Of a DNA stretch of 64,000 bases, positions 9,475 to 16,348 are shown one piece after another. Under the pieces are notes generated by a model, which had not been told where the DNA came from, ran no database searches, and was given only the letters and a program-made list of their open reading frames with translations. The translations under genes and the position numbers were made by a program. The stretch spans positions 3,160,001 through 3,224,000 of the forward strand of contig NZ_CP076135.1 of assembly GCF_018736105.1 (NCBI RefSeq). The letters run 5' to 3'. The DNA comes from Bradyrhizobium sediminis. Its GTDB lineage: Bacteria > Pseudomonadota > Alphaproteobacteria > Rhizobiales > Xanthobacteraceae. Positions within the stretch are counted from its first letter, which is position 1; each line of letters begins with the position of its first letter.

Positions 9475-12400
9475 TCAGGATGCCTTGGGCGATCTGTCGC
9501 GTAGCGCGATGTAGATCGCGGGAATGACCAGAACCGTCAGCAGGGTCGACGAAGCCAGGCCGAACAGCAGCGAAATCGCGAGCCCCTGAAAGATCGGATC
9601 GAGCAGGATGGTCGCGGCGCCGATCATGGCGGCCAGCGCGGTAAGCAGGATCGGCTTGAAGCGCACGGCGCCGGCTTCCAGCACGACATCGCGCATCGAC
9701 CTGTTCTCGCCCCCGCTGTGGCGGATGAAGTCGACCAGCAGGATCGAATTGCGGACGATGATGCCGGCAAGCGCGATGAAGCCGATCATGGAAGTCGCGG
9801 TGAACGGCGCGCCCAGCAGCCAGTGCCCGAGCAGAATGCCGATCAGGGTCAGCGGTATGGGCGTCAGGATCACCAGCGGCAGCCGGAAACTGCCGAACTG
9901 CGCCACCACCAGCACGTAGATCCCGAGGATCGCCGCGCCAAACGCCGCGCCCATGTCCCGGAAGGTGACATAGGTGATCTCCCATTCGCCGTCCCACAAC
10001 AGCGTCGGCCGGGACTCATCGGCCGGCTGTCCGTGTAGGCCGATGACGGGCTTCTGCAGCTTGCCCCAATCGTGCGCGTCGATCCGGTCGGAAACCGCGA
10101 GCATACCGTAAAGCGGCGCCTCGAAGCGGCCCGCCAGTTCTGCCATCACCATGTCGGCGAACCGGCCGTCGCGACGAAAGATCGTCGGCGATCCTTCTTC
10201 GACGGTCGCCTTGACCAGCTGCCCCAACTCGACGACGGTCTTGCTGCCGGGAAGCGTGTTGGCGGGCACCGGTGTGGAAGCCAGCGCTTCGGTCCAGGCG
10301 AGGTCGCGCTTCGGCAGCCGGACCGCGATCTCGATCGGATTGCGGTCCTCGCCGCGGTGCGAATAGCCCACGGAGACGCCGCCGAACAGCGTCTGGATGG
10401 TGTCGTAGACATCGCGCTGCTCGACGCCGAAGAATTCGAGCCGGTCCTGGTCGATCGAAAGCCGCAGCCGCGGCCGCTTCTCCCCGATCGAATCGTCGAT
10501 ATCGACGATGAACGGCACTTCGGCGAAGATCTTCTTCAGTTCGCCCGTCACCGCCCGGCGGGTCGCCGCATCGGGTCCGTAGACCTCGGCCAGCAACGTC
10601 GCCAGCACCGGCGGACCGGGCGGCACTTCGACGACCTTGATGCTGGTGCCGGGTGGGACACTGACGGCCTTGAGCCGCTGACGCAGATCGAGCGCAATGT
10701 CATGGCTCGCCCGCTTGCGATCGGATCGCGCGGCAAGATTGACCTGCAGTTCGCCCAGTTCCGGACGCGCGCGCAAATAATAGTGCCGGACCAGGCCGTT
10801 GAAATTGAACGGCGCGGCGGTGCCGGCATAGGACTGCACCGAGGTGATCTCGGGCAGGCCGCGGGCGACATCGGCGGCGGCAAACAGCGTTCGTTCGGTA
10901 TCCTCGAGGCTGGCGCCCTCGGGAAGATCGACCACCACCGCGATCTCGGATTTATTGTCGAACGGCAGCAATTTGACCGTCACCGACTTGGTGGCGAACA
11001 AGGTCATCGACAACAGCGTGGCGACCCCGACACCGATCAGGAATGTCCAGGCCGAACGCCTGTTGGCGACGATCGGGGTTGCGAAGCGACGATAGAGGCG
11101 CCCGAGCACGCCTTCGTCGTGTGCGTCATGCGCCGCGCCGGCAACACCCTCTTTCGGCGCCAGCCGCAGCATCAGCCACGGCGCCACCACCATCGCCACA
11201 AAGAACGAGAACAGCATCGCCGCGGACGCATTGGCCGGTATCGGCGCCATATACGGGCCCATCAGCCCCGACACGAACAGCATCGGCAGCAAAGCGGCAA
11301 CGACGGTCAGGGTCGCAACGATGGTCGGATTGCCGACTTCGGCGACGGCCTCGATGGTGGCCTGCAGCCGCGGCCGCCCATCGCGCATCGCCCAGTGGCG
11401 GGCGATATTCTCGACCACCACGATGGCGTCGTCGACCAGGATGCCGATCGAGAAGATCAATGCGAACAGGCTGACGCGGTTGATGGTGTAGCCCATCAAA
11501 TTCGCGGCAAACATCGTCAGCAGGATGGTCGTCGGGATCACGACCAGCGTCACCAGCGCCTCGCGCCAGCCGATCGCAATCGCGATCAGGACCACGATCG
11601 AGATCGTCGCCAGGCCGAGGTGAAACAGGAGTTCGTTGGCCTTTTCGTTCGCCGTCTCGCCATAGTCGCGGGTGACGGTGACCTCGACATCCTCCGGGAT
11701 GAGGCGCGATTTCAGCCCGGCAAGCCGGTGCGTAATTTCTTCGGAAACGACCACCGCATTGGCGCCCGCCCGCTTGGCAAGCGCCAGGCTGACCGCCGGA
11801 ACCCGCTCCCACTTACCCTTGCCGTCACGCGCATCGCTCCAGATGCGGTGCTCGATCGCATTGGGTCCGATGACCACGCTGGCGACGTCCTTGACGTAGA
11901 CCGGACGTCCGTCACGCGTCGAGATCAGCAGCAGGCCGATGTCGGGAATGCCGGTCAGCGTCTGGCCCGCCGACACGCTGCGCACCTTGCCGGCGTCGCG
12001 GACCTGTCCCGCCATGAACGACCGGTTGGCGTCCTTCACCTTGGCGACGAGCTGCTGCAGCGTCACGCCGAACAGCGACAGCTTTTCCGGATCGGGCTCC
12101 ACCCGGATCTGCTGGGCTCCGCCGCCGGAAATATAGGTCAGGCCGATGCTGTCGACCTTCATCAACTCCGCGCGCAGCTTGTCGGCGAGTTCGTAGAGAT
12201 CCTTGTCCGTCCACCGGCCGGCGGCCTCGGGCTTCGGCGAAAGCGTCAGCACGGTCACGGCGACGTCGTTGATGCCGCGGCCGACGATCGAGGGCTCGGA
12301 AATGCCCACGGGAATACGGTCCAGATTGGCGCGGATCTTCTCATGAACGCGAAGGATGGCGTCCTCGGACTTGGTCCCGACCAGAAAACGCGCGGTGACC

Positions 12401-12684
12401 ATGACGCGATCGTCTTCGGTCTGGCTGTAAACGTGTTCCACGCCATCGATGCCCTTGACGATGGCTTCAAGGGGCTTGGTGACCAGTTCAACCGCATCCG
12501 GGCCGCGCAATCCGTCCGCATTGATGCGGATGTCGACCATGGGGACGCTGATCTGAGGCTCTTCCTCGCGCGGAATGACCACCACGGCGATCATGCCGAC
12601 GACCAGCGAGGCGAGCAGGAACAATGGCGTCAGCGGCGATCCGATGGTGGCCCGGGTGAGCCGGCCCGAAAGTCCGAGATTCAC
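9475..12684 (-). CDS. RND efflux pump inner-membrane permease (AcrB/HAE-like)
   Basis: This 1069-aa protein is a full-length RND permease with two repeats of six transmembrane helices and large periplasmic loops. N-terminal landmarks are TPLFLLASLVVGMIAVVVIP and PREEEPQISVPMVDI. The transmembrane-4 proton relay carries the Asp pair in GILVDDAIVVVENI; the transmembrane-10 segment reads IIVRNSILLVDFI, with Arg where AcrB has its relay Lys. The start is a GTG at 12684 overlapping the adaptor stop (GTGA), so the two are translationally coupled. With the adaptor and an ArsR sulfide-type regulator upstream it forms a three-gene operon. No TolC-type gene lies nearby, so it must use an outer-membrane channel encoded elsewhere. 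The cargo is unknown. Confidence 0.93.
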   Translation of the reverse strand: MNLGLSGRLTRATIGSPLTPLFLLASLVVGMIAVVVIPREEEPQISVPMVDIRINADGLRGPDAVELVTKPLEAIVKGIDGVEHVYSQTEDDRVMVTARFLVGTKSEDAILRVHEKIRANLDRIPVGISEPSIVGRGINDVAVTVLTLSPKPEAAGRWTDKDLYELADKLRAELMKVDSIGLTYISGGGAQQIRVEPDPEKLSLFGVTLQQLVAKVKDANRSFMAGQVRDAGKVRSVSAGQTLTGIPDIGLLLISTRDGRPVYVKDVASVVIGPNAIEHRIWSDARDGKGKWERVPAVSLALAKRAGANAVVVSEEITHRLAGLKSRLIPEDVEVTVTRDYGETANEKANELLFHLGLATISIVVLIAIAIGWREALVTLVVIPTTILLTMFAANLMGYTINRVSLFALIFSIGILVDDAIVVVENIARHWAMRDGRPRLQATIEAVAEVGNPTIVATLTVVAALLPMLFVSGLMGPYMAPIPANASAAMLFSFFVAMVVAPWLMLRLAPKEGVAGAAHDAHDEGVLGRLYRRFATPIVANRRSAWTFLIGVGVATLLSMTLFATKSVTVKLLPFDNKSEIAVVVDLPEGASLEDTERTLFAAADVARGLPEITSVQSYAGTAAPFNFNGLVRHYYLRARPELGELQVNLAARSDRKRASHDIALDLRQRLKAVSVPPGTSIKVVEVPPGPPVLATLLAEVYGPDAATRRAVTGELKKIFAEVPFIVDIDDSIGEKRPRLRLSIDQDRLEFFGVEQRDVYDTIQTLFGGVSVGYSHRGEDRNPIEIAVRLPKRDLAWTEALASTPVPANTLPGSKTVVELGQLVKATVEEGSPTIFRRDGRFADMVMAELAGRFEAPLYGMLAVSDRIDAHDWGKLQKPVIGLHGQPADESRPTLLWDGEWEITYVTFRDMGAAFGAAILGIYVLVVAQFGSFRLPLVILTPIPLTLIGILLGHWLLGAPFTATSMIGFIALAGIIVRNSILLVDFIRHSGGENRSMRDVVLEAGAVRFKPILLTALAAMIGAATILLDPIFQGLAISLLFGLASSTLLTVLVIPAIYIALRDRSPKAS

Positions 12685-13676
12685 GGTTGCACCAACTGGT
12701 CGCCGGTACGAATACCGGACAGGATTTCGAGACCATTGGGCAGATCGGGGCTCGCCAGATTCCGCCCGCGCTGCACCGGCGCGCTGACGGTGCGATCGCC
12801 CTGGCGTATCTGGACGTAATCGATGCCGAAGCGCGTGGTGACGTAATCAGATGGAATCACGAACGCCATCCGCTCGCCGCCGGATATCCAGACCCGCAAA
12901 CGGTCGCCGACGAAATATTCCCCGAGGTTTTCGACGGTGGCGTCCGCGATCACGCGGCCGTCCTCGATCTGCGGATAAACCAGATCGATCACACCCGATT
13001 TCGGACTCTGGTCGCCGAACTCGGCGCCATCGACCCTGATCTTGTCACCGGTCTTCAGGAAGCGGGCATGCCGTTCCGGCACCCGCAGCCTCAACTTGAA
13101 ATTCTGTTGCGCAATCATCGCAACGGGGTCGCCGGGCAATACGACGGAGCCAACGGCCGCCAGTTTCTTCAGCACGCGCCCGCCGGCGGGCGCCAGCACC
13201 TGCCCTTCGTTGAATTGCTGCTGGACCACGGCACGTTCGGCGGTCTTCGCCCGCAGACCGTTCTCCGCCACGTTGAGCACGGTGCGCGCCTCGTCGAGCT
13301 TGACCCGGGGAAGCGTCCCGCGCTCCACCAGTCCCTCGATCCGGGAAAAATCGATCTGCGCCTGATTCGACTGCGCCTGCAGCGCGTCGATCTGCGCATC
13401 CAGCGATTTCATCTGAAGGCCAAGTTTTTCGTCGCCGATCGTGGCGATCGCCTGTCCGCGCGTTACCGGATCGCCTTCGCGAACGTTGAGCTGAACGATG
13501 GTGCCGCCGATACGCCCGCGGGCCGGAACCACGCTGATGCTCTCGACGGTTGCGAACACCGCCTTCTCGTCGGCGACCGGCCGCAGCGCCACGGTCAGGG
13601 TTTCGGCATCGGCGCTTTGGCCGCCCAATGCCGCTGCCGCAAGAACGCCGAATGCAATCAATCTACGCATGGTCAT
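12681..13676 (-). CDS. RND efflux periplasmic adaptor (membrane fusion protein)
   Basis: The protein is 331 aa from the ATG at 13676 (a second ATG two codons on is an alternative), with GGGAG upstream. A signal peptide ends near ADAETL; there is no lipobox Cys. Adaptor features follow: a barrel-sandwich half motif GGTIVQLNVREGDPVTRGQ, a coiled-coil hairpin around residues 85-150 (rich in Ala/Gln/Glu), the second half motif APAGGRVLKKLAAVGSVVLPG, then beta-barrel segments. It bridges the RND permease to an outer-membrane channel. It starts 90 bases after the ArsR gene and overlaps the permease start by four bases, so the three are probably co-transcribed. Confidence 0.92.
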   Translation of the reverse strand: MTMRRLIAFGVLAAAALGGQSADAETLTVALRPVADEKAVFATVESISVVPARGRIGGTIVQLNVREGDPVTRGQAIATIGDEKLGLQMKSLDAQIDALQAQSNQAQIDFSRIEGLVERGTLPRVKLDEARTVLNVAENGLRAKTAERAVVQQQFNEGQVLAPAGGRVLKKLAAVGSVVLPGDPVAMIAQQNFKLRLRVPERHARFLKTGDKIRVDGAEFGDQSPKSGVIDLVYPQIEDGRVIADATVENLGEYFVGDRLRVWISGGERMAFVIPSDYVTTRFGIDYVQIRQGDRTVSAPVQRGRNLASPDLPNGLEILSGIRTGDQLVQP

Positions 13677-13766
13677 TGCCTTTCCGCTCCCTGGCGGTTG
13701 TTCGGGCATCTCATTGAAGTTCGCCGCGACGACGTTGACCTGCCTCAAGGCGTCGCCTGCGCGCTC

Positions 13767-14096
13767 CTATAATTTAGTCTTGCTGGTTCTGGCTTTCGGC
13801 GCGCAATAGACCTGATAGAGCGTTTTCAGGATCTCGCGCGCGGGATCGCTGGCGATCGAGTAGTAGATCGTCTGGGCATCACGCCGCGCCGACACCAAGC
13901 CATCCTTGCGGAGCAAAGCAAGATGCTGGGACACCGTGGAATCGCGCAGGCTCAGGAACTCCGCGAGATCGCCAACCGAGCGCTCGCCGTCGATCAGCTG
14001 GCAGATGATCAGCAGCCGATGACGATTGGAAAGCGCCTTCAGGAGGTCGCTGGCCCGATCGGCCGCCGACTCCATTAACGTGCTATCTATTTTCAT
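13767..14096 (-). CDS. ArsR family repressor, likely persulfide/sulfide sensor (SqrR/BigR type)
   Basis: The 109-aa protein (start ATG 14096) is a winged-helix ArsR/SmtB regulator: LLKALSNRHRLLIICQL is helix 2-3, and LRDSTVSQHLALLRKDGLV is the recognition helix and turn. It has two cysteines, Cys32 and Cys98, 66 residues apart. The same 66-residue spacing occurs in the persulfide sensors SqrR (Cys41/Cys107) and BigR (Cys42/Cys108), which derepress on forming an intramolecular polysulfide link. The gene lies divergent from sulfide:quinone oxidoreductase and upstream of the RND pump on its own strand, so it probably controls both sides. The sensing role is inferred from cysteine spacing and context. 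Confidence 0.88.
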   Translation of the reverse strand: MKIDSTLMESAADRASDLLKALSNRHRLLIICQLIDGERSVGDLAEFLSLRDSTVSQHLALLRKDGLVSARRDAQTIYYSIASDPAREILKTLYQVYCAPKARTSKTKL

Positions 14097-14130
14097 ACTT
14101 GCGTATATACGATTATTCGAATATATAGTC
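14097..14130. promoter_or_regulatory. Candidate operator/promoter between the sulfide regulator and SQR
   Basis: The 106-base divergent spacer contains an AT-rich island in otherwise GC-rich sequence, with two perfect palindromes: CGTATATACG at 14102-14111 and TATTCGAATA at 14114-14123, 12 bases centre to centre. ArsR dimers bind such AT-rich dyads, and their place directly before the regulator start fits autoregulation plus control of SQR. Binding is inferred. Confidence 0.55.
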
Positions 14131-14202
14131 AAGGCAGGCGGTCGAACAAGCCAAGGCAAATTGGCGCAGCCGCAACAGGGAATGCAGCAAACGGAGGTTT
14201 TC

Positions 14203-15489
14203 ATGGCGGAAGTTGTCGTTATCGGAGCCGGTCTCAGCGGGACGCTGATGGCCTACGAATTGTTACCGCAACTGAGGAAGGGCGATCGTCTGACCGTTGT
14301 CTCCCAGGGGCCGGTCTATCATTTCGTCCCCTCCAATCCCTGGGTCGCGATCGGCTGGCGCAAGCGCGGCGATATCGAGATCGACCTTGTCGACATCATG
14401 AAGCGCAAGGGCATCCGGCTTCTGACGCAGGGCGCACAGCGCGTGCATCCGACCGAAAACCGCGTCGAACTCTCGGACGGCGCCTCGATCGATTACGACT
14501 ACCTGGTGGTCGCTACCGGGCCTGAACTCGCATTCGACGAAATCCCCGGGCTCGGGCCGGACGGCCACACCCAATCGGTCTGCCACGTCGATCACGCCGC
14601 CCACGCCAAGGACGCCTTCGAGAAGCTCGCCGCCAATCCGGGTCCGGTGGTGATCGGCGCCGTGCAAGGCGCCTCCTGCTTCGGGCCGGCCTACGAATTC
14701 CTGTTCATCCTGGAAACCGAGCTGCGCCGCCGCAAGCTTCGCGACCGCGTGCCCATGACCTTCGTCACCTCGGAGCCCTATATCGGGCATCTCGGTCTCG
14801 ACGGGGTCGGCGACACCAAGGGCCTGCTCGAAAGCGAGATGCGCGAGAAGCACGTCAAATGGATCACCAACGCCCGGGTCAAGGGCGTCGAGCAGGGCAA
14901 GATGACCGTCGAGGAGATCGCCGAAGACGGATCGATCCGCAAGACCCACGAACTGCCGTTCGCCTATTCGATGATGCTGCCGGCGTTCCGCGGCGTCGGC
15001 GCTGTCAGAGGCATCGAGAAGCTGACCAACCCGCGCGGTTTCGTGATCGTCGACAAGCATCAGCGCAATCCCGAATATCCCAACATCTTCGCGATCGGCG
15101 TCTGCGTGGCGATTGCGCCGGTCGGAGCCACCCCGGTCCCGGTCGGCGTGCCGAAGACCGGATTCATGATCGAGTCGATGGTGACGGCGACGGCGATGAA
15201 CATCGGCTCGCTGCTCAAGGGCCAGGCCCCCGCGGCGCAGCCGACCTGGAACGCGATCTGCCTTGCCGATTTCGGCGACTCCGGCGTCGCCTTCCTGGCG
15301 CAGCCGCAGATTCCTCCGCGCAACGTCAACTGGTCGTCGAAGGGCGAATGGGTTCATTTCGCCAAGGTCGCGTTCGAGAAATACTTCCTGCGCAAGATCC
15401 GGCGCGGCGAGAGCGAGCCGTTCTACGAGCGCTTCCTGCTCGACAAGCTCAACATCGCCAAAATCAAGGAGGTCAAGACCGGAACATGA
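14203..15489 (+). CDS. sqr: Sulfide:quinone oxidoreductase (FAD-dependent)
   Basis: SQR oxidises sulfide to sulfane sulfur at a cysteine pair and passes electrons through FAD to quinone. The protein is 428 aa from the ATG at 14203, behind GGAGG at 14193-14197. It has the N-terminal FAD motif VVVIGAGLSGTLMAYEL, an ATG dinucleotide-fold motif LVVATGPELAFDEIPG, and cysteines at 127 (SVCHVDH), 159 (GASCFGPAYEF) and 353 (AICLADFG), which match in position the three key cysteines described for Acidithiobacillus SQR (128, 160, 356). C-terminal amphipathic segments would attach it to the membrane. Its stop overlaps the start of the thioredoxin gene (ATGA). Subtype not assigned. Confidence 0.92.
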   Translation: MAEVVVIGAGLSGTLMAYELLPQLRKGDRLTVVSQGPVYHFVPSNPWVAIGWRKRGDIEIDLVDIMKRKGIRLLTQGAQRVHPTENRVELSDGASIDYDYLVVATGPELAFDEIPGLGPDGHTQSVCHVDHAAHAKDAFEKLAANPGPVVIGAVQGASCFGPAYEFLFILETELRRRKLRDRVPMTFVTSEPYIGHLGLDGVGDTKGLLESEMREKHVKWITNARVKGVEQGKMTVEEIAEDGSIRKTHELPFAYSMMLPAFRGVGAVRGIEKLTNPRGFVIVDKHQRNPEYPNIFAIGVCVAIAPVGATPVPVGVPKTGFMIESMVTATAMNIGSLLKGQAPAAQPTWNAICLADFGDSGVAFLAQPQIPPRNVNWSSKGEWVHFAKVAFEKYFLRKIRRGESEPFYERFLLDKLNIAKIKEVKTGT

Positions 15490-15929
15490 GTGCGAGTCAC
15501 CAGGTCGTCTGTGGACATTGCGGCAAGATCAACCGGCTGCCGGCCGAACGGACCGCAACGGACGCGCGTTGCGGGTCGTGTCACCAGCCGATCTTCAGCG
15601 GTCACCCCATCGAGGTGGACGAGGAGGCGTTCGGCCGCCACGTCGCCAGCAGCGACATCCCCGTCCTCGTCGATGTCTGGGCGCCCTGGTGCGGCCCCTG
15701 CCGCTCCATGGCGCCGATGTTCGAACGGGCCGCGCAGGAACTCGAGCCCAGGGTTCGGCTCTTGAAGCTGAACTCGGACAACGCGCCCTCCGTCTCCTCC
15801 CGCCTCGGCATCAGCGGCATCCCTACCCTGCTGCTGATGCACAAGGGCCGGGAGATCGCACGGAGCGCTGGCGCGATGGATACCAAGAGAATCGTTGCAT
15901 GGACGATGGCCGGGCTTGCCCGGTCCTGA
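15486..15929 (+). CDS. trxC: Thioredoxin 2-type protein (TrxC) with N-terminal zinc motif
   Basis: The 147-aa protein has a zinc-ribbon N-terminus with Cys9-x2-Cys12 and Cys29-x2-Cys32, then a thioredoxin domain with the WCGPC active site at residues 68-72 and the cis-proline segment GISGIPTLLLMHKG. TrxC proteins are cytosolic disulfide reductases linked to oxidative stress. The start overlaps the SQR stop by four bases, so translation is coupled and the protein probably works on the SQR product, for example by reducing persulfides. That role is inference from the operon. Confidence 0.93.
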   Translation: MSASHQVVCGHCGKINRLPAERTATDARCGSCHQPIFSGHPIEVDEEAFGRHVASSDIPVLVDVWAPWCGPCRSMAPMFERAAQELEPRVRLLKLNSDNAPSVSSRLGISGIPTLLLMHKGREIARSAGAMDTKRIVAWTMAGLARS

Positions 15930-15965
15930 TGACTTCAAACCCACCTGGAAGGAAAGAAATACGTC

Positions 15966-16169
15966 ATGAACATCGATAAGGCAGTGCTCGCTTTCGCAGG
16001 ATTTGTCGTGCTTCTCGGCCTCACGCTGGGCTGGCTGGTGCATCCCTACTGGTACCTGCTGACCGCCTTCGCCGGGCTGAACATGCTGCAGGCAGCCTTC
16101 ACCGGCTTCTGTCCCGCGGCGATGATCTTCAAGAAGCTCGGCCTGCGCGGCGGCAACGCGTTTTCGTAA
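15966..16169 (+). CDS. DUF2892 (YgaP-type transmembrane) protein
   Basis: The 67-aa protein has two hydrophobic helices (about residues 7-25 and 30-48) and ends with FCPAAMIFKKLGL, the hallmark of the DUF2892 family, which is the membrane part of the YgaP rhodanese and often occurs beside sulfide/persulfide genes. The single Cys lies in this motif. It is 36 bases after trxC with AAGGAAAG upstream, and completes the SQR operon. Exact function is unknown; thiosulfate or sulfur handling at the membrane is a reasonable guess. Confidence 0.88.
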   Translation: MNIDKAVLAFAGFVVLLGLTLGWLVHPYWYLLTAFAGLNMLQAAFTGFCPAAMIFKKLGLRGGNAFS

Positions 16170-16271: not shown

Positions 16272-16348
16272 TGGTAGGCGGCGAGAGATTCGAACTCCCG
16301 ACCCTCTCGGTGTAAACGAGATGCTCTAACCAGCTGAGCTAGCCGCCC
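16272..16348 (-). tRNA. tRNA-Val (TAC)
   Basis: The minus-strand 77-nt sequence has acceptor GGGCGGC paired with GCCGCCT (G-U at the end pair), D-arm AGCTCAGCTGGTTAGAGC, T-loop AGTTCGAATC and encoded CCA. The anticodon loop TTTACAC gives TAC (Val). Confidence 0.97.

Follow-up and report, generated by a model that had tools for sequence, protein, structure and literature searches.

Why should an efflux pump be encoded back to back with genes for sulfide oxidation? Pumps of the resistance-nodulation-division (RND) type are mostly considered in connection with drugs or metals, and the disposal of the hydrophobic sulfur made by sulfide:quinone oxidoreductase (SQR) is, to our knowledge, poorly understood. 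Both subjects meet in a 64,000-nucleotide stretch of the Bradyrhizobium sediminis genome (NZ_CP076135.1, positions 3,160,001 to 3,224,000; hereafter the window), in which six genes, checked on the sequence, form two divergent operons, arsR-adaptor-permease on the minus strand and SQR-TrxC-DUF2892 on the plus strand. We favour, with some confidence, the reading that these genes make up a sulfane-sulfur stress module, in which a SqrR-like ArsR switch controls both SQR and a pump that exports sulfane-sulfur species.

An earlier note on this DNA, made from the sequence alone, had set a neighbourhood survey as a check on the link between the pump and the sulfur genes. At an E-value of 1e-100, permeases of the same group as that of the window turned up in 142 of the 397 genomes sampled across the phylum and in 70 of the 198 sampled across the family, and neighbours were counted within 7.5 kb of the permease. 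The first set took the best 80 out of 579 loci confirmed as related, all from Pseudomonadota (72 assigned to the Alphaproteobacteria, 8 without a class name), of which 77 carry ArsR, 72 DUF2892, 45 SQR, 31 TrxC and 20 a rhodanese. Among the 68 of these loci with at least 5 kb of upstream DNA, the association recurs with ArsR at 68, DUF2892 at 66, SQR at 44 and TrxC at 29, versus no partner gene of any kind at 20 control RND loci (11 from the window's genome, 8 from G385 and 1 from G446; 22-26% identical to the permease over the best segment). Since none of the controls carries a partner gene, the linkage is beyond chance and more than a one-strain accident. DUF2892, which had been treated as a minor member, is present as the note stated, but with 66 of 68 loci versus 44 of 68 for SQR it is the most constant member besides the regulator. 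The constant partners of the pump are ArsR and DUF2892; SQR is common but replaceable.

A second set of 79 loci came from the phylum search and consists of 35 out of 40 matches listed with at least 61% identity (omitted were that of the window itself, three from its genus and one already covered as a short locus) and of 44 below 50% identity, which were hand-picked and not random. At 60% identity or above (n = 35), ArsR, DUF2892 and SQR adjoin the permease at 23, 24 and 22 loci, respectively; the corresponding counts are 8, 19 and 3 at 40-60% identity (n = 38), and 2, 3 and 3 below 40% (n = 6). Seen from the side of DUF2892, 9 of its 13 genes in ten genomes lie within 4 kb of a group permease, in 9 of the 10 genomes, a biased rate because the genomes were picked after seeing gene orders; none was found within 7 kb of other RND loci in those ten genomes, judged by eye from the listed coordinates.

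SQR changes place from locus to locus: it may diverge from the pump, precede it in the same orientation or follow it. On a FastTree tree that joins 159 relatives, the window's permease among them, to 20 paralogues, at least 31 changes are implied for SQR, 21 for DUF2892 and 19 for ArsR, numbers that are somewhat too high because of long outgroup branches, open forks and short-flank loci: 16 of the 159 surveyed loci have less than 5 kb upstream and may be cut contigs, 14 of them scored without SQR and 8 without DUF2892. In 25 independent pairs differing in SQR, DUF2892 differed the same way in 11.4, the opposite way in 0.5 and was unchanged in 13.1 (averages; median p 0.002, range 0.0001-0.04). 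At loci without type I SQR, its place can be taken by other sulfur genes. Locus L009 has instead a protein that matches the type III SQR model below cut-off (199.5 versus 525 bits), and locus L169 has rhodanese, YeeE-type and DUF6691 genes together with a CoA-disulfide-reductase-like protein bearing a rhodanese domain. Matches also occur in 53 plasmid records, seven of which were examined. The Paracoccus denitrificans PD1222 cluster encodes an MBL-fold protein, DUF2892, YeeE/YedE, DUF6691, a sulfurtransferase, ArsR and two cytochromes, as well as a second DUF2892, the adaptor and the permease. An Asticcacaulis plasmid carries ArsR, DUF2892, an FAD-dependent oxidoreductase, a rhodanese, adaptor, permease and a second ArsR; a plasmid of the cyanobacterium Pseudanabaena carries two ArsR, DUF2892, an FAD/NAD(P)-binding oxidoreductase, a rhodanese, adaptor and permease; and on a plasmid of Vibrio sp. 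HDW18, DUF2892 is the sole partner. Genes for a CcoG-like (FixG) protein and a carboxymuconolactone decarboxylase also recur beside the pump cluster (L062, L078, L013, L009, L032).

We then consider the regulator, assigned, like the other proteins, by Pfam, NCBIfam and PDB sequence searches. Its closest solved structures are HlyU, SqrR, BigR, NolR and YgaV, and its two cysteines, as pointed out in the note, are there: they lie at positions 32 and 98 and align with the two Cys of the SqrR structure (13ct/6o8l). In an alignment of 111 ArsR neighbours of group permeases, that of the window included, all 111 share Cys32 and 100 share Cys98. The protein scores 85.8 bits against the BigR equivalog NF040642, under the cut-off of 155, and is for this reason termed SqrR-like and not BigR. 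It shares the ArsR subfamily, the Cys pair and possibly a related operator with SqrR of Rhodobacter capsulatus, BigR of Xylella and Acinetobacter, and YgaV of Escherichia coli, and by analogy with such characterised relatives it would both sense sulfane sulfur and repress. These relatives sense via tetrasulfide formation (PMC12423496), YgaV represses the gene of YgaP (PMC9774250), and the bigR operon encodes a TauE-related transporter and a dioxygenase-sulfurtransferase (PMC5823870, where neither RND nor efflux occurs). A role of the window ArsR as sox regulator was set aside: a second ArsR of the genome, 46% identical, neighbours a cytochrome-c-like gene and soxC (662 bits versus a cut-off of 420), and because of this separate ArsR the one in the window is probably not the sox regulator.

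The two operons share a spacer that contains a palindrome, ATATACG-N6-CGAATAT, whose only perfect match in the 5.45-Mb genome is this one; the reversed-pattern control gives 0. Perfect copies were found at 16 loci, the window's own and 15 of 30 genus loci, 11 of them in the ArsR-SQR gap, one by a distant ArsR (37%) and four by no query gene. Across the genus, a site within one mismatch occurs once or more in 48 of 60 genomes, and the reversed control in 14 of 60, 12 times in one. Of 81 non-redundant regions upstream of two-Cys ArsR genes, 29 contain a relaxed SqrR-type box (shuffle mean 0.84, maximum 4), and 24 of these boxes end exactly 10 bases ahead of the ATG. A first box count that allowed up to one mismatch (57 of 136, versus 7.4% of shuffles) included duplicate loci and was dropped. 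Note that the absence of boxes upstream of one-Cys ArsR genes (0 of 10) is no real control because these genes directly follow the permease.

The same spacer holds promoter-like sequences for either direction, one towards ArsR and one towards SQR. A pattern similar to the one on the ArsR side is found in 46 of the 81 non-redundant relatives (mononucleotide shuffle mean 1.82), 33 of them with 7 bases to the ATG, a distance from which a leaderless arsR transcript is predicted. Both patterns overlap by at least 20 bases in 27 of the 81 regions (shuffle mean 0.02, maximum 1). A first count of the SQR-side pattern (37 of 81), which took it anywhere in 180 bases, with at least one in another register and no shuffle control, was dropped. 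The overlapping promoters rest on family-specific patterns; a generic scan returned nothing for the spacer because it requires T at the last -10 position. Since the palindrome lies inside the overlapping promoter-like sequences, one ArsR dimer could block both promoters, and a putative operator common to both operons is apparently new. The Cys pair, the palindrome in the shared spacer and the neighbourhood survey thus support the earlier proposal of one sulfide or persulfide sensor for both operons. The spacer had also been called AT-rich, which holds for the whole (48.1% GC versus 63.8% for the window) but chiefly for its ArsR end, the first 40 bases being at 32.5%.

Several further sites deserve mention in their own right. 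The perfect palindrome has no query gene adjoining in the genus members L235, L238, L242 and L251, and in L248, also of the genus, a one-mismatch site accompanies a 49% identical ArsR with CcoG-like and carboxymuconolactone-decarboxylase-like genes, with no pump query match in 3 kb. In the B. sediminis genome, a second operator-like palindrome with one mismatch (G000:C1:5230151-5230170; L227 1501-1520) lies 78 bases before the longest open reading frame of a single-domain rhodanese gene. As a possible second target this is a weak lead; among the 30 genus loci given, with one site per genome, none adjoins that rhodanese gene.

What kind of pump is controlled in this way? Among the named NCBIfam multidrug RND subfamilies, the best score of the permease is 420.1 bits, far under the cut-off of 1250, and the metal RND model of the HME type (CusA/CzcA, TIGR00914) reaches 265.4 bits versus a cut-off of 701. 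The window protein contains the motif GILVDDAIVVVEN, of the hydrophobe/amphiphile (HAE) type, and its Asp-Asp pair is kept among the aligned relatives (D418 in 159 of 159, D419 in 158 of 159); such a pair in the fourth transmembrane helix is what we take to be the mark of HAE pumps. The permease thus belongs to a distinct HAE-type group that is apparently new. Neither the permease nor the adaptor of the window has a Cys, and 96 of the 159 permeases of the group are likewise Cys-free, the remainder carrying 1 to 7. The note's remark that no TolC gene is present holds for the whole window, where PF02321 is absent and no outer-membrane factor was found; four such OEP genes lie elsewhere in the genome, and in some relatives (L179, L169, L196) an outer-membrane channel is encoded in the same cluster.

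On the other side of the spacer, the SQR matches its Acidithiobacillus ferrooxidans counterpart over its full length (residues 2-426), and Cys127, Cys159 and Cys353 align with cysteines of the A. ferrooxidans structure; these are presumably its redox cysteines, and the protein is what we take to be a type I enzyme. The DUF2892 protein resembles the membrane domain of YgaP (nuclear magnetic resonance structure 2mpn, E 2.1e-5). Unlike YgaP, it has no rhodanese domain, and its Cys49 stands in a TGFCP motif where YgaP has no Cys in the alignment. All 119 aligned copies, the window's included, keep this sole cysteine, and conservation of A11, F35, N39, Q42 and G59 likewise rounds to 100%; as the copies were gathered by similarity to the window protein, some of this conservation is expected from selection. 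A single invariant Cys in a small membrane protein would fit a role in sulfur handling. No paper on DUF2892 as a pump partner was found in the open-licence literature, and this partnership is apparently new.

The gene anatomy described earlier agrees with the open reading frames and coordinates found here, including the 90-base gap between ArsR and the adaptor start, the 106-base spacer and both overlaps, GTGA between adaptor stop and permease start and ATGA at the SQR/TrxC junction. The longest open reading frame of the adaptor extends to 13748. The core of the module, namely ArsR, adaptor, permease and DUF2892, with SQR common, is better defined than first seen and is real and recurrent. Shortly past the DUF2892 gene, a tRNA-Val gene (anticodon tac) occupies positions 16272-16348 of the minus strand.

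Table. Features of the pump-SQR locus, in coordinates of the window.
Feature	Position	Strand	Remarks
RND permease, HAE-type, distinct group	9475-12684	-	GTG start; 1069 aa; PF00873 478 bits
RND periplasmic adaptor (MFP)	12681-13676	-	ATG at 13676; TIGR01730 109.6 bits, cut-off 94.9
SqrR-like ArsR repressor, Cys32 and Cys98	13767-14096	-	PDB matches; SqrR Cys alignment; NF033788 above cut-off
Divergent promoter region common to both operons	14097-14202	.	106 bases
SQR-side promoter-like TTGCGT-N17-TATATA	14099-14127	+	24-base overlap with the opposite promoter-like sequence
ArsR-side promoter-like TTGACT-N17-TATATA	14104-14132	-	7 bases ahead of ArsR ATG
Operator-like palindrome ATATACG-N6-CGAATAT	14105-14124	.	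contains ATAC-N8-GAAT at 14107-14122
Type I sulfide:quinone oxidoreductase (SQR)	14203-15489	+	485.9 bits to 3sz0
Thioredoxin TrxC, N-terminal zinc ribbon	15486-15929	+	NF008229 133.1 bits, cut-off 125; PF21352
DUF2892 / YgaP-like transmembrane protein, 67 aa, Cys49	15966-16169	+	PF11127 41.6 bits, cut-off 25.3

The gene content, the conservation of the cysteines and of the palindrome, and the recurrent linkage are observed features, around which the following mechanism can be drawn. A dimer of the SqrR-like ArsR would sit on the single palindrome and silence both operons. Sulfide entering the cell would be oxidised to sulfane sulfur, which would join Cys32 and Cys98 by a polysulfide bridge, release the repressor and so switch on both operons together. 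SQR would then produce sulfane sulfur and pass electrons to quinone, TrxC would reduce persulfides and disulfides, and DUF2892 may act as a sulfur acceptor or handler in the membrane. The RND pump, working via an outer-membrane channel encoded elsewhere, would export a lipophilic sulfane-sulfur species such as an organic polysulfane, S8-like sulfur or a persulfidated small thiol. For the pump substrate and the role of DUF2892, this is no more than inferred. A sharper version, which we put forward only as an unlikely refinement, makes the pump a dedicated exporter of zero-valent sulfur: SQR would load the Cys of DUF2892, DUF2892 would serve as carrier or accessory of the Cys-free pump, and polysulfane or S8-like sulfur would be lifted from the membrane across the outer membrane.

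Parts of this picture are already in print. In its section 2.1, PMC12423496 (2025) places two-Cys ArsR genes next to sqr, pdo, rhodanese, TauE, YeeE and RND pump genes, and it regards RND pumps as likely transporters of sulfur compounds, so that the pump-regulator link and the idea of sulfur transport are not new; that part of the paper, on the sHdrR/SoxR-related two-Cys ArsR of Hyphomicrobium denitrificans, gives RND pumps one clause and holds no permease group, DUF2892 or shared operator. In Azospira suillum PS, Dsui_3440-3443 encode an unknown protein, an efflux pump, an SQR and an adaptor; according to PMC5358917, the genes are highly expressed with H2S, and the pump-SQR operon was flagged by Bar-seq transposon fitness data. 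As the genes are described there, an RND-type pump, its adaptor and SQR stand together as they do here, in a single operon in A. suillum and in two divergent ones in the window, and ArsR goes unmentioned in that paper. Elsewhere in A. suillum, expression of a DUF2892 gene rises about tenfold, and without this gene oxidation starts slightly later (PMC5358917). The description of the locus as an under-described sulfide-stress system is thus right, with the reservation that the system had been seen in part in these two papers. In the open-licence literature we found no paper that shows an RND pump exporting sulfur and none on Bradyrhizobium with sulfide, SQR and efflux.

A number of observations weigh against a sulfur-exporting module. 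Neither DUF2892 nor SQR is found at 10 of the 35 second-set loci at 60% identity or above, at 19 of the 38 at 40-60% and at 2 of the 6 below 40%, nor near the permease on the plasmids of Shinella, Flammeovirga and Alloyangia; and a 12-member permease subclade has no sulfur query genes nearby. With so many loci lacking DUF2892 and SQR, the sulfur link marks large parts of the group but not the whole of it. On the side of regulation, 11 of the 111 neighbouring ArsR proteins lack the second Cys, the ATAC-N8-GAAT of the window matches the published box ATTC-N8-GAAT (quoted in PMC9774250) only inexactly, and 52 of the 81 upstream regions are without even the relaxed box. Finally, deletion of the whole pump-SQR operon of A. 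suillum left the rate of H2S oxidation unchanged, according to PMC5358917, a result that fits a pump that removes the product of SQR rather than oxidising. Two of these groups are of interest in themselves. The subclade (L159-L167, L171, L173, L174; 43-45% identity) would serve naturally as a reference when the substrate is studied. The one-Cys ArsR proteins (L119, L123, L125, L126, L128-L130, L133, L134, L136, L139), in which R, G or H replaces the second Cys, all come from same-class genomes, with the gene just downstream of the permease, and may sense differently.

The same loci without DUF2892 or SQR nearby would suit a pump that carries no sulfur and broadly exports lipophilic toxicants or redox metabolites, quinone-like ones for example, under a sulfide signal, as a general response to membrane or respiration stress. 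The HAE-type motif agrees with this, as do the top NCBIfam scores, which are to multidrug RND models, all under cut-off; the constancy of DUF2892 and the repeated re-association with differing sulfur genes in differing orders fit a sulfur-linked substrate better, and we hold such a broad exporter to be rather unlikely, if a serious contender. Export of metal ions, or of metal-sulfide complexes arising in sulfide stress, is the substrate that the A. suillum authors proposed for their RND pumps (PMC5358917). Genes that could point the same way stand near two relatives, a cation P-type ATPase and a VIT-family gene in Shinella and feoA/feoB in Pseudanabaena, in a survey that included no systematic metal-gene search. 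Against metals stand the HAE-type Asp-Asp pair, kept in 158-159 of 159 relatives, the CusA/CzcA score, well short of its cut-off, and the SqrR Cys pair of the regulator, and we regard metal export as improbable.

That the two operons are merely adjacent and functionally unrelated would sit with the relatives that lack SQR, which are nothing direct; with partner genes at 0 of 20 control pumps versus DUF2892 at 66 of 68 loci, and with the genome's one perfect palindrome in the shared spacer, we give this coincidence hardly any credence. A sulfane-sulfur stress module is the reading that we retain.

In this module, a widespread permease group joined to a sulfane-sulfur-type regulator and a one-Cys membrane protein offers a direct, testable candidate, and tractable hosts are at hand in Paracoccus denitrificans PD1222 and Bradyrhizobium. 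If the dedicated exporter proved true, it would explain how sulfide oxidisers expel insoluble sulfur. Sulfide could, moreover, induce an efflux pump, by which exposure to sulfide would be linked to tolerance of other compounds.

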